Shown: one piece after another, positions 4,788 to 10,703 of the stretch
Layout: every line of letters begins with the position of its first letter
Numbering within the stretch: position 1 is the stretch's first letter
The notes under the pieces: generated by a model
What the model saw: only the letters and a program-made list of their open reading frames with translations
What the model was told of the DNA's origin: nothing
The model's database searches: none
Assembly: GCA_003020985.1 (NCBI GenBank)
Contig: PXRM01000014.1
Location: 78,265 to 142,264, forward strand
DNA length: 64,000 nucleotides
Reading direction: 5' to 3'
Source of the DNA: Halobacteriales archaeon QS_4_70_19
Lineage (GTDB): Archaea > Halobacteriota > Halobacteria > Halobacteriales > Haloarculaceae
Program-made: the position numbers and the translations under genes

Positions 4788-5861
4788 GTGAACCGCCGGG
4801 CTGCGCTCCGTCGGCTGGCTCGCGAGCGCGCGGCCGACGAGTCCTGGCTCCCGGCCCGGGAGGAGACGCTCGGCCGCCGGGCGTGGCTCAAGCGGGCCGG
4901 CGCGGCGACGGTCGGCCTCGGTGCCGCCATCGCCACGAACAACGCCGTCCTCGGCTACGGAACGGTGACGGGGACGAACATCACCGAGCAGTCCATGGAC
5001 TCGATGGCCGCCCGGCCGTTCCTCGAGATGGAGCGGCGGGCGCCCGTCCCCGGCGGCCGGCTGGAGATCGACCGCCGCGGTGAGCGCCTTACCGTCCGTG
5101 GCGACGGAGTCCGTCGGCTCTCGCTCGCGGAGGCGACACCGGCGATGGCTCGCGAGGCGGCCACCGCGGTCGGTGTCGACCCCGAGACGGTCGGCGAGAC
5201 GACCGCCGACGTGCTCGCAATCCAGGCAGACGACGTGCGGTGGGAGCCGGTCACGTTCGACGCGTTCCGCGAGACGGTCGCGGCGGGCACTCCCCGGCCC
5301 GTCACCACGGGCCTCCTCCGGGCGCGGTACACCGACGCGAACCCGGAGACGGTGGCCGCGTTCACCGGCGCGGACCCGGCGGACCCGGTCGCGACCGCGT
5401 ACGCCCTCGCCGAGGCGTTCCGCGAGACGACCTACTACGACGTCCCGCGGTACCTCGCCGGATCGATCCAGTACAACGTCCTCCTGAACCTCGTGAAGCT
5501 CCGGCCGTACCTCCGGTCGGACACCTCGTTCGAGGCCCTCGCGGCTGGCCGGACCCGGGGGATGTTCTGCCAGGAACTCACCCACCGCTCGATCGAGGCG
5601 TTTCACGCCCCCTCCGTCCTCGAGCAGTCCCCGCCGGTCGCGTCCGTCGTGGCGTTCGATCCACGCCACAGGCACAACTACACGGCCCTCGCCACGGTCA
5701 CCCGCCGTGCCGGCGACCTCGTCGTCCCCATCGCCTTCCTCGACTACACCCACTCCACGCTGTACGACGACCTGAACCTCCGTGGCGTCCTGGGCGAGGG
5801 GCTGGAGGCGTACAACTCGCGTCATCGAGCGCGGGAGCTGACATGGTGGCAGCATCGGTGA
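4788..5861 (+). CDS. Tat-exported protein of unknown function (paralog A of HTTM-flanking pair)
   Basis: GTG start; twin-arginine RRAWLKRAGAATVGLGAA; conserved LGYGTVTGTNITEQS, CQELTHRSIEAFHA, RHRHNYTALATVTRR, THSTLYDDLNLRG shared with 7418..8455. Confidence 0.8.
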   Translation: MNRRAALRRLARERAADESWLPAREETLGRRAWLKRAGAATVGLGAAIATNNAVLGYGTVTGTNITEQSMDSMAARPFLEMERRAPVPGGRLEIDRRGERLTVRGDGVRRLSLAEATPAMAREAATAVGVDPETVGETTADVLAIQADDVRWEPVTFDAFRETVAAGTPRPVTTGLLRARYTDANPETVAAFTGADPADPVATAYALAEAFRETTYYDVPRYLAGSIQYNVLLNLVKLRPYLRSDTSFEALAAGRTRGMFCQELTHRSIEAFHAPSVLEQSPPVASVVAFDPRHRHNYTALATVTRRAGDLVVPIAFLDYTHSTLYDDLNLRGVLGEGLEAYNSRHRARELTWWQHR

Positions 5862-7354
5862 TGTCGCCCGGATCGGCCGGGCGCTGGGACCGGTTCCGGG
5901 CCGCCGTCGAACGCCGCCTCTCGGTCGACCGCCGGGCACTGGCGGCGCTCCGGGTCGCGCTCGGCCTGCTGCTGCTCGTGGACCTCCTCCTGCGGTCGCG
6001 GGCGCTCGTCGCCCACTACACCGACCGCGGGGTCCTGCCGCGCCCGGCGCTGCGGGAGGTCTACGGCCCGCTCGCGGATATCTCGCTCCACGCGCTCTCC
6101 GGCGGCGTCGCCCTGCAGGTCGCGCTGTTCGCGCTGGCCGGTCTCGCGGCGCTCGCGCTGACCGCCGGCTACCGCACCCGGCTCGCCGCGGTCGTCTCGT
6201 GGCTGCTACTCGTCTCCCTGCACGCGCGGAACCCGCTGGTGCTGAACGCCGGCGACTCCGTCCTCCGACGACTGCTGTTCTGGGGGCTGTTCCTCCCGCT
6301 CGGGGGCACCTGGTCGGTCGACGCGTTCACGGGTGAGCGTGACACGAGCGACCGGAACGGTACCGTCGTCGGCGTCGCGACGGCCGCGCTGCTCGTCCAG
6401 GTCGTTCTCGTCTACGCACTGAACGCCGTCATCAAGCTCCGCGGCGAGGCCTGGCCGAGCGGGACCGCCGTCCGGTACGTCCTCGGTATCGACCACCTGA
6501 CGGTGCTGCTTGGCGACGCCCTCGCCGGCTACCCGGCACTGCTAGAACCGCTGGCCCGGGGCTGGCTCGTACTGCTGGTTCTCTCGCCGCTACTGCTCGT
6601 ACTGACGGGCCGGCCGCGCGCACTACTCGCCGCCGCGTTCGCGGCCGGGCATCTCGGGATGGCGCTCACCCTCCGGCTCGGGCCGTTCCCGTTCGTCTCC
6701 ATCGCGGCCCTGCTGCCGTTCCTCCCGCCGCGGATGTGGGATATGGCCGGTCGTCGGCTCCGCGGGGTCGTCTCGGCAGCCCGCCGCGGGCGCATCGAGC
6801 GCGCCCTGCGACGGGTCACGGTCCCGCTACCCCGGGAGTCGACACTGTCCGACCGGCTCCGCACGGTGGACCGTCGCGTCGCGCCGGTCGTCGTGGCCGC
6901 CCTCCTCGTGGCGGTGCTCCTCTGGAACGCCGTCTCCATCGGTGTCGCACCCGCCCCGGCCGAGGTGCGGGACGCGAGCGAGGAGTACCGGTGGGACATG
7001 TTCGCCCCGGAGCCCCGCCGGACGGACGGCTGGTACGTCGCGCCGGCGACGCTGCCGTCCGGGGAGCGCGTCGACGCCTGGAACGGTGGCTCCGTCTCGT
7101 GGGGCCCGCCGCCCGACACCGCCACGACCTTCCCGAGCCACCGGTGGCTGGTCTATCTGCTCGACCTCCGGCGTCCCGGCGGGGCCCCGCTGCGTGACGA
7201 CTTCGGTGCCTACCTCTGTGACCGCTGGGCGGCTCGCCACGACTCGCGCCCGACGGACGTGTCCGTCGTCTACGTCGAGCGCCCGGTCGTGCTCGACGGG
7301 CCGACGGAGACGCGGCGCGTCGACCTCGGGACGTACCGCTGTCCGGCGGAATGA
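5843..7354 (+). CDS. HTTM domain-containing membrane protein (vitamin K-dependent gamma-carboxylase-like TM domain)
   Basis: Multi-TM protein with RVALGLLLLVDLLLRSRALVAHYTDRGVLPR and LLFWGLFLPLGGTWSVDAF pattern typical of HTTM; alternative ATG at 5861 forms a TGATG stop/start overlap with the upstream gene. Confidence 0.8.
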   Translation: MVAASVMSPGSAGRWDRFRAAVERRLSVDRRALAALRVALGLLLLVDLLLRSRALVAHYTDRGVLPRPALREVYGPLADISLHALSGGVALQVALFALAGLAALALTAGYRTRLAAVVSWLLLVSLHARNPLVLNAGDSVLRRLLFWGLFLPLGGTWSVDAFTGERDTSDRNGTVVGVATAALLVQVVLVYALNAVIKLRGEAWPSGTAVRYVLGIDHLTVLLGDALAGYPALLEPLARGWLVLLVLSPLLLVLTGRPRALLAAAFAAGHLGMALTLRLGPFPFVSIAALLPFLPPRMWDMAGRRLRGVVSAARRGRIERALRRVTVPLPRESTLSDRLRTVDRRVAPVVVAALLVAVLLWNAVSIGVAPAPAEVRDASEEYRWDMFAPEPRRTDGWYVAPATLPSGERVDAWNGGSVSWGPPPDTATTFPSHRWLVYLLDLRRPGGAPLRDDFGAYLCDRWAARHDSRPTDVSVVYVERPVVLDGPTETRRVDLGTYRCPAE

Positions 7355-7417
7355 GGGCCGGAGTCGAGCCGGGAGTGGGTGAAAAAGCACTTACCACTGA
7401 TACCGAAACGCCCGTTA

Positions 7418-8455
7418 ATGCGCCCGGACTCGCCCGACGATGACCCGGCGAATGAGGAGCCGGACACCGGGCGGTCCGTCTCGCGCCGTCAGGTGCTCGC
7501 CGGAGCGGCGGCGGCCACCGGGATTGCGAGCGCCGCCACGGTGAACCGGTTCCTGCTGGGGTACGGGACGCTGTCGGGGACCAACGTCACCGAGCAGTCG
7601 CTCTCGGACCTGGCGTCCGCCCCGTTCGCGGCCGGGACGCGGACGGTGTCGGTTCCCGGCGGCCAGCTGGAGCTGACGGGCGACCGCCTCACGCTGGTCG
7701 GTACGGATTCGGCGGCGTGTCACCTTCCCGAGACGACGCCCGAGCGAGGGGCCGAACTCGCCGCGCAGGTCGACATCGACCCGGAACCGGTCCGGCAGGT
7801 CGTTGCGGATGTCCGGTCGGTTCGTCGGGGGAACGTCCGGTTCGCCCCGGTACGGTTCGACGAGTTCTCCGACGCCGTCGCCCGGGGCCGCCCGCGTCCA
7901 GCGACGACCGGGTTACTCCGTTCGCCGCGGGCCGTGGTGGCGCCGGCCGACGTGTGGGCGTTCGTCGGTGAGCCGACTACGGCACCGACCGACCTCCTGC
8001 GGCGGCTCGCCGAGCGGTTCCACGAGACGACAGCGTACGACCTCACGAGGTTCGCGGGCAACGTCGTGGAGAACCGCCTCCCGGGCGGCAACCCACGCCG
8101 GCCACTGTCGGAGAGTTCCTTCTCGACGCTCCGGACCGACGACGCCGATGGGCTCCTGTGCTGGGACTACACGCGCCGAGGGGTCGAGGCGATACACGCG
8201 GTGCCGGCGCTTGACGGGCGGCCCGCCGCCGCGGCCACCCCGGCGCGCGACGACCGACACGGACACGTCTTCATGGCGTTGGCCGCCGTGACGCGCCGCG
8301 GTGACGGCGTCCCGGCCGTCGTCGTCACGTTCGTCGAGTTCGTTCATTCGGCGTTGTACGGCGATGTCGGGCTCCGAGGGGCACTCGGCGCCGACCTGAA
8401 CGCCTACGACGAACTCCACCGAGTCACGTCACTTCCCTGGTGGAACGGTGCCTGA
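7418..8455 (+). CDS. Tat-exported protein of unknown function (paralog B of HTTM-flanking pair)
   Basis: SRRQVLAGAAAATGIASAA Tat signal; LGYGTLSGTNVTEQSLSDLA, CWDYTRRGVEAIHAVPAL, RHGHVFMALAAVTRR, HSALYGDVGLRGALG; clear paralog of 4788..5861; ORF can extend upstream to 7379. Confidence 0.8.
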   Translation: MRPDSPDDDPANEEPDTGRSVSRRQVLAGAAAATGIASAATVNRFLLGYGTLSGTNVTEQSLSDLASAPFAAGTRTVSVPGGQLELTGDRLTLVGTDSAACHLPETTPERGAELAAQVDIDPEPVRQVVADVRSVRRGNVRFAPVRFDEFSDAVARGRPRPATTGLLRSPRAVVAPADVWAFVGEPTTAPTDLLRRLAERFHETTAYDLTRFAGNVVENRLPGGNPRRPLSESSFSTLRTDDADGLLCWDYTRRGVEAIHAVPALDGRPAAAATPARDDRHGHVFMALAAVTRRGDGVPAVVVTFVEFVHSALYGDVGLRGALGADLNAYDELHRVTSLPWWNGA

Positions 8456-8556
8456 ATTCATCTCGGACGGCGGGTATGAGCGCTTTCGATGGTGGTTGTG
8501 AGCGTGCCACGAGCCCAGCCACAAACCGTATATCCCGGCGCGTCGACCGACCACGT

Positions 8557-9543
8557 GTGTCGCAGGGACTGACCGACGCGCTGGCCTGGGTCTCCATCGC
8601 CGTGTTCACCCTGGCGGTGCTCGCGGAGCTGCGCGACCGCCGGACGGCCCGCTTCGTCGCGGTCGGGGCGTGGGCCGCCTTCGCCGTGTTCTGGCTCGCG
8701 CTCGTCCCCCAGTTCCTGCTCGTCGAGAAGAGCGCCATCGAGGGCGTCCTCAGTGCGCTCGCCGTCCCCGCGTCGCTGTCCGCCGCCTACCTCCTCTACC
8801 GTGGCCGCGAGTCGCTGCTCGTACTCACGCGGGGCGTGGCCGTGATGGGCCTCATCTACCTGCCCGCCACCACCATCCCCTGGATCTACGGGCCGCTCGT
8901 GGAGACGACGACCGCGCAGGTCGACTTCCTCATCCGGCTCGCCGGCTACGACCCGACGGTGACGACCGGCGAGAACGGACTGCGCAACACCTTCGTCTTC
9001 ACCACGGACGGCCACCAGTACGAGACGTTCATCATCCTCGCGTGCACGGGGCTGGGGAGCATGGCCATCTTCGCCGGCCTCATCGCCGCGGTGCGGGCCC
9101 CGCTCCGCAGGAAGTTCGCCGCACTCGCGGTCAGCGTCCCGGTTATCTGGGTGCTCAACCTCGTCCGGAACGCGTTCATCGCGGTCGCCTTCGGCAAGCA
9201 GTGGTTCCAGGTCGCGGTCCCGCAGGTGTCGATGCTGTTCGGCGTCCCCGCCGGGCAGGAGGGGCTGGTTTCCTTCTACCTCGCCGACAAGGTCATCGCC
9301 CAGTCCGCCTCCGTCGTCGCGCTGGTCCTCATCACGTACCCGGTCGTCCGGTTACTGCCCGAACTGGCGGCCGTCCTCGACGACGCACTCTACGTCGTCA
9401 CCTACCGGGAGTTCCACATCGCTGAGGCGCTGGGGCTGGAGGACGCGAGCGCCGGCGCGACCGGGGAGCGAGAGGACGGCGCCGGGCGGGAGCCGCCACG
9501 CCGCAGCGACTCCGGCCCCGTCGGCCCGACCGACGACGACTGA
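8557..9543 (+). CDS. artA: archaeosortase A-like transmembrane transpeptidase (copy 1)
   Basis: Multi-TM; ACTGLGSMAIFAGL (catalytic Cys) and NLVRNAFI (catalytic Arg) archaeosortase/exosortase motifs; GTG start, ORF extends upstream. Confidence 0.88.
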   Translation: MSQGLTDALAWVSIAVFTLAVLAELRDRRTARFVAVGAWAAFAVFWLALVPQFLLVEKSAIEGVLSALAVPASLSAAYLLYRGRESLLVLTRGVAVMGLIYLPATTIPWIYGPLVETTTAQVDFLIRLAGYDPTVTTGENGLRNTFVFTTDGHQYETFIILACTGLGSMAIFAGLIAAVRAPLRRKFAALAVSVPVIWVLNLVRNAFIAVAFGKQWFQVAVPQVSMLFGVPAGQEGLVSFYLADKVIAQSASVVALVLITYPVVRLLPELAAVLDDALYVVTYREFHIAEALGLEDASAGATGEREDGAGREPPRRSDSGPVGPTDDD

Positions 9544-9644: not shown

Positions 9645-10703
9645 ATGACCGGACCCGCGGCGAGCCTGCTGTCGGCGCTCGCGGCGCTGGGGGCGCTGTC
9701 GGATCCGCTGGCGTGGCTGGTGGTGGCCACGTTCGTCGGCGGCAGCCTGCTGGAACTCCGCGCCCGCGAACCCGCCCGGTACGTCCTCGTGGGAGCGTGG
9801 CTCCTGTTCGCGCTGTTCTGGCTCACGCTGGTCCACCACTTCGCGTTCGAGCAGAAATCGGTGATCGAGGGAGTCGGTGCCGTCGCCGCGGTCCCGCTGT
9901 CGGCGTACGTCGGCTACCTGCTGTACGCCGGGCGCGACTCGCTGTTCGTCCTCTCGCGGGCCGTCGCGGGGATGGGCGCCGTCTTCATGCCGTTCGAGGC
10001 GCTCGCGGTCCTGCGGCGCCCGCTCATCGAGACGGTCACCGTCCAGACGGAGCTGCTGATGGGGCTGCTCGGCCAGGACCCGACGGTCCTGACCTGGTCG
10101 GAGGCGACCGAGCGCATCGCCGCGCAGTACGACTGGGCCGCCGCGCGTGCGCGCTCGTTCAGCGAGGAGCGGGGCTACTACGACTACCGCAACACGTTCT
10201 TCTTCCTCCACGAGGGGCAGTACCCCATCACCTACACCATCCGGCTCGCGTGCACGGGGCTGGGGAGCATGGCCATCTTCGCCGGCCTCATCGTCGCCGT
10301 GCGGGCGCCACTGCGCCGGAAGGCCCGCGCGTTCGCCGTCTCCATCCCCGTCATCTACGCGCTCAACCTCGTGCGGAACGTCTTCATCGGCCTCACGTTC
10401 GGCCAGCAGCGCCTCCAGGTGGCGGTCCCGCAGGTGATGAGCCTGTTCGGGACCAGCGACCCCCGGATGGTGTCGTACTTCCTCGCCGACCGTGTCCTCG
10501 CGCAGTCGCTCTCAGTGGTGGCGCTCGTGGCCATCACCTGGCTCGTCGTCCGGGAGCTCCCGGAGGTGCTGACCGTCGTCGAGGACGTGCTGTACGTGCT
10601 GACCGGCTCGGAGTACGACCTCCGGGACGCGCTGGACGTCGACGGGAGCGGCCCCGATTCGGACCCCGACCCCGCGCCCGTCCGCGCTGACGGCGGGGAA
10701 TGA
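9645..10703 (+). CDS. archaeosortase A-like transmembrane transpeptidase (copy 2)
   Basis: ACTGLGSMAIFAGL and NLVRNVFI motifs; collinear with copy 1 but with an extra ~25-residue segment before the Cys motif. Confidence 0.88.
   Translation: MTGPAASLLSALAALGALSDPLAWLVVATFVGGSLLELRAREPARYVLVGAWLLFALFWLTLVHHFAFEQKSVIEGVGAVAAVPLSAYVGYLLYAGRDSLFVLSRAVAGMGAVFMPFEALAVLRRPLIETVTVQTELLMGLLGQDPTVLTWSEATERIAAQYDWAAARARSFSEERGYYDYRNTFFFLHEGQYPITYTIRLACTGLGSMAIFAGLIVAVRAPLRRKARAFAVSIPVIYALNLVRNVFIGLTFGQQRLQVAVPQVMSLFGTSDPRMVSYFLADRVLAQSLSVVALVAITWLVVRELPEVLTVVEDVLYVLTGSEYDLRDALDVDGSGPDSDPDPAPVRADGGE

Follow-up and report, generated by a model that had tools for sequence, protein, structure and literature searches.

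Organization of the locus

The window, a 64,000-nucleotide stretch of a contig from Halobacteriales archaeon QS_4_70_19, carries a run of five genes on the plus strand that is bounded by two opposite-strand genes, MoeA and DPH5 (Table 1). Two of the five encode twin-arginine proteins, designated TatA and TatB, with a gene for an HTTM-domain membrane protein between them, and a pair of archaeosortase A (ArtA) genes, which was not part of the initial annotation, lies directly downstream on the same strand. The three co-directional open reading frames (ORFs) described in that annotation were all seen again in an ORF check, together with the 1-nt TGATG overlap, in which the ATG of the HTTM gene begins at the last base of TatA (5861). 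Moreover, the four motif blocks quoted as shared were all found in both TatA and TatB, and the middle gene was confirmed as encoding an HTTM protein, its PF05090 score exceeding the cut-off of 27.7 bits. The proposed paralogy of TatA and TatB was likewise borne out by 43% identity over the whole length and by their position as sisters in the family tree (100/99). When more Haloglomus rows were added, both fell in one clade, with TatB forming a long branch among the Haloglomus Tat proteins.

Two of the start sites were chosen among alternatives. The TatB frame is open from a GTG at 7379, and the ATG at 7418 is better placed ahead of the twin arginines; the frame of ArtA copy 1 is open from 8440, and the start at 8542 was selected to fit TIGR04125, for which the cut-off is 75 bits. 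When the rest of the window was searched for PGF-CTERM proteins with a regular expression, no convincing match emerged.

Table 1. Genes of the plus-strand run, in positions of the window
Feature	Position	Strand	Evidence
TatA, twin-arginine protein, 357 aa	4788..5861	+	ORF; GTG start 4788, stop 5861
HTTM-domain polytopic membrane protein, 497 aa	5861..7354	+	PF05090, 36.1 bits
TatB, diverged TatA paralogue, 345 aa	7418..8455	+	ORF, alignment, conservation, tree
Archaeosortase A (ArtA) copy 1	8542..9543	+	TIGR04125, 310 bits, E 1e-92
Archaeosortase A (ArtA) copy 2	9645..10703	+	TIGR04125, 319 bits, E 2e-95

Distribution and conserved residues of the Tat family

Of 300 Halobacteria drawn evenly, 46 (∼15%) had full-length matches to the Tat family, and when a species-level genome collection was scanned, all of the records returned were haloarchaeal. 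Profile searches with TatA and TatB yielded no Pfam or NCBIfam match above cut-off, comparison of 35 family members with Pfam gave just weak signal-peptide and chance-level matches, and no description of the family was found by literature searches. The Tat family is an undescribed haloarchaeal protein family.

The N-terminal twin arginines are invariant in all 35 members, and the proteins are probably exported in folded form via the Tat route, as judged from sequence. The conserved cysteine, histidine, and arginine residues pointed out in the initial annotation hold across these 35 homologues, in which R178, R221, C261, R267, H294, H296, H346, and R347 are invariant, the RHxH motif occupying positions 293 to 296 and the HR motif positions 346 and 347 of TatA. 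D319 is kept in 34 of the 35 members, the exception being TatB, which has Glu at this position and retains the Cys and both His. Since 24 of the 35 members have no cysteine other than C261, an internal disulfide is not expected in them, and a lipobox lipoprotein was rejected because there is usually no second cysteine. The usual type of PGF-CTERM substrate of ArtA was also rejected, given that the tail (PGF, a hydrophobic stretch, and a basic end) is missing from the C termini of TatA and TatB.

Some family members are interrupted, by either decay or sequencing error: the Tat gene of the congener G204 (L062, 9372-10442) has an in-frame TAG, while those of L102 (G224) and Haladaptatus pallidirubidus (L122) appear split or frameshifted. 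In Natrialbaceae-type loci beside the L31e and eIF6 genes (L065, L087, L093, L096, L111, L117, and L126), the Tat gene is immediately preceded by the gene for a second, unrelated Tat-type protein of ∼340 aa and unknown family (cluster c26). In L069 (gene at 6695-7549) and L073, the gene just ahead of the Tat gene encodes a membrane protein judged by eye to be similar to PAP2-type lipid phosphatases, possibly a further link to lipids.

Gene neighborhood of the Tat family

In haloarchaea, surface proteins are cleaved at the C terminus and anchored to lipid by ArtA, PssA, and PssD (PMC7157517). In H. volcanii, whose sole cell wall component is the S-layer, ArtA-dependent maturation requires PssA and PssD, and archaetidylethanolamine is the proposed lipid nucleophile; across more than 70 haloarchaea, artA, pssA, and pssD were reported not to cluster (PMC7157517). 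Neighborhood maps with marker genes were drawn for about 80 Tat-family loci, of which 45, taken from the 300 Halobacteria, formed an unbiased subset. Within this subset, 16 loci have artA next to the Tat gene (with the HTTM gene between the two in G204), and in 14 the Tat gene immediately follows pssD, a phosphatidylserine decarboxylase homologue; in these loci, gene order links the Tat gene either to artA or to the gene for its lipid supply. Three of the neighboring PssD proteins were scanned, and all of them exceeded the cut-off of the model for the protein sorting system archaetidylserine decarboxylase (NF038088). Several ArtA loci are headed by an S-layer-type gene (SLG) with a PGF-CTERM tail (two proteins scanned), and the orders SLG-Tat-artA-artA, SLG-artA-Tat, artA-Tat-artA, and Tat-artA-artA were all seen, the Tat gene standing between the S-layer gene and artA in several loci. 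Neither artA nor pssD is next to the Tat gene in about one third of loci.

With a chance neighbor at ∼2 in 3500 genes, even four independent events would correspond to a P value of ∼2e-8. On the Tat tree, the deep branches of which are weakly supported, the artA-linked label requires four changes and the pssD-linked label five; therefore, the linkage was probably not inherited as one block. In several lineages, the position of the Tat gene ties together two genes of the pathway, artA and pssD, that are otherwise separate.

The HTTM gene and TatB

The initial annotation had proposed that the HTTM protein is the partner of an exported Tat pair, with conserved co-occurrence across Halobacteria as the check. 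When the neighborhood analysis was run, this co-occurrence proved not to be conserved: an HTTM gene follows the Tat gene in just 2 of the 45 unbiased loci, the consistent partners being artA and pssD, and a constant HTTM partner was rejected on the basis of the maps. The order of a Tat gene followed by an HTTM gene was observed in the window, its congener G204, the Haladaptatus-type loci L066, L110, and L113, and Halorarius (L125). The Haloglomus congeners G300 and G302 have Tat-artA-artA without HTTM or TatB and otherwise keep the order MoeA, Tat, artA, artA, DPH5. HTTM paralogues were found in 188 of the 300 genomes, in most cases away from any Tat gene. Those located at Tat loci do not form the closest group: an unlinked HTTM protein (G084) is 57% identical to that of the window, compared with 49% for a linked one (G128). 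The window protein is also weakly similar, below the cut-off, to SdpB-type proteins (TIGR04033), and no SdpA or SdpC neighbor was seen. Two Tat copies are particular to this genome, and nearly all other loci have a single Tat gene. The position of the HTTM gene between the two Tat genes looks incidental, and we read the HTTM gene and TatB as late local insertions into a plain Tat-artA-artA operon, in which HTTM could conceivably have a role.

Co-occurrence with PssD and ArtA

The Tat gene was found only where the pathway genes ArtA and PssD occur. ArtA was present in all 300 sampled Halobacteria, whereas the Tat gene is confined to ∼15% of them, and the Tat family would thus be an accessory rather than a core part. 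PssD was absent from 35 of the 300 genomes, nearly all of them in the window's own family, and present in every Tat-positive genome (46/46). Within the window's family, 12 of 12 Tat-positive genomes had PssD versus 17 of 51 others (Fisher P of 2e-5, uncorrected for kinship). One genus (g11) includes two genomes with both Tat and PssD and one with neither. In another genus (g3), the sorting-system PssD was missing from all 16 sampled genomes, all of which have ArtA.

Paired ArtA copies

R253 of H. volcanii ArtA is the critical third catalytic residue (PMC9263693). The equivalent arginine is replaced by Lys in ArtA copy 1 of the window (ADKVIAQ), and copy 2 has the catalytic Cys, Arg, and Arg all present. 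In Natronomonas-type loci, the ArtA copy downstream of Tat has Gly or Ser at the third catalytic residue. ArtA pairs with one copy altered at the third Arg and the partner intact were noted in the window, L089, L097, L121, L124, L130, L131, and L132. At least two ArtA genes were found in 6 of 46 Tat-positive genomes versus 7 of 254 others (P of 0.007, uncorrected for kinship). The altered copy may be a pseudo-enzyme or an ArtA of altered specificity, and its pairing with the putative Tat thiol protein is suggestive.

Predicted structure of the Tat protein

The AlphaFold2 model of TatA had a mean pLDDT of 82 and a pTM of 0.79. Two AlphaFold2 models agree that a helix begins at C261, that a strand begins at H296, and that a strand ends just before D319. 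In the predicted core, by analogy with transglutaminase-like (papain-like) thiol enzymes (PF01841 and relatives), Cys, His, and Asp occur in this order, with the Cys at a helix start, the His at a strand start, and the Asp at a strand end; the Cys-His and His-Asp spacings (35 and 23) nevertheless differ from those of a haloarchaeal transglutaminase core (∼44 and ∼16). The HMM and Foldseek searches envisaged in the initial annotation were run and returned neither an assigned fold nor a significant relative. Foldseek found no significant match for the full-length and core models against the PDB or for the full-length model against viral structures, the best match of the core model being transglutaminase 2 with a nonsignificant E value of 0.52, and neither hhalign against haloarchaeal transglutaminase cores nor a PDB sequence search supported a transglutaminase relationship. 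Because these fold and profile searches were without significance, it is the residue order that carries the transglutaminase-like reading. Transglutaminase membership was rejected, given that Pfam on the 35 members, the PDB sequence search, Foldseek, and hhalign all lacked significance; Peptidase_C93, which was not found in 31 relatives, was rejected as well.

Proposed role and alternative explanations

Judging from gene context, the Tat family very likely belongs to the ArtA lipid-anchoring pathway, and its conserved residues suggest that the Tat protein probably acts as a catalyst through its thiol. Taken as a whole, the explanation that we favor, with some reserve, is that the Tat proteins are exported, probably thiol-dependent accessories of ArtA/PssD lipid anchoring; the assignment of any particular step is considerably less certain. 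PssA and PssD would make archaetidylethanolamine, ArtA would remove the PGF-CTERM tail from surface proteins, among them the S-layer glycoprotein, and the C terminus exposed by the cut would be joined to the lipid. The folded Tat protein would leave by the Tat route and work outside the cytoplasmic membrane, where the invariant Cys, a His, and an Asp probably form its catalytic center; it would either help to pass the cleaved protein on to the amine of the lipid or trim or edit what ArtA has produced. We consider it unlikely that the Tat protein serves as a second cysteine acyltransferase of the pathway, one that is soluble and that takes over the cleaved C terminus or edits the ArtA product and finishes the amide transfer to archaetidylethanolamine; if this were true, cleavage and lipid attachment would be split between two different thiol enzymes in these archaea.

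The Tat protein might instead be a noncatalytic exported adaptor or chaperone that presents the S-layer protein or the lipid to ArtA, or a regulator of ArtA. This role draws on the same artA/pssD linkage and is favored by the lack of any enzyme fold or profile match and by the loci with the Tat gene placed between the S-layer gene and artA; however, a lone invariant Cys with His, Arg, and a near-invariant Asp is typical of an active site, not of a binding surface, and we consider such a role conceivable but rather doubtful. It is quite improbable that the linkage is passive, with the Tat gene having settled in two conserved blocks (DExH helicase-PssD-CDC48 and ArtA-DPH5-TRM5) and serving an unrelated surface function. 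The blocks are separate and have ArtA lipid anchoring as their sole common theme, and the Tat gene can precede or follow artA, also accompanies S-layer genes, and is confined to PssD-bearing genomes, although the roughly one third of loci located elsewhere, e.g., those of Natrialbaceae-type genomes with L31e and eIF6 genes alongside, would fit a passive linkage.

We give very little credence to a surface-modification system made up of the Tat pair and an HTTM enzyme, with ArtA as a bystander. Despite the Tat-HTTM order in three lineages (the window with G204, Haladaptatus-type, and Halorarius) and the overlap of the two genes in the window, HTTM genes are rare at Tat loci, missing from the congeners G300 and G302, and mostly located away from Tat genes in the genomes that have them. 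The more general idea of the initial annotation, namely that the exported proteins have an enzymatic domain and serve to modify the surface, survives in broad terms with the artA/pssD context and the conserved residues, and it falls with regard to the HTTM partner.

Significance and comparison with the H. volcanii pathway

Lipid anchoring after archaeosortase cleavage is still a model, and its reported parts are ArtA, PssA, and PssD, the genes of which are scattered in haloarchaea. The Tat family, in our preferred explanation an accessory of this process, is a specific candidate for a new part, with a candidate active-site Cys; its confirmation would give S-layer biogenesis an additional step or regulator. 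The Tat loci resemble the pathway of H. volcanii in that their recurrent neighbors are artA, pssD, and PGF-CTERM S-layer genes and in that ArtA and PssD are present in all Tat-positive genomes. They differ from it in two respects: the pathway has been described without a Tat-exported soluble partner, and its genes were reported as unclustered, whereas here the Tat gene joins either artA or pssD.
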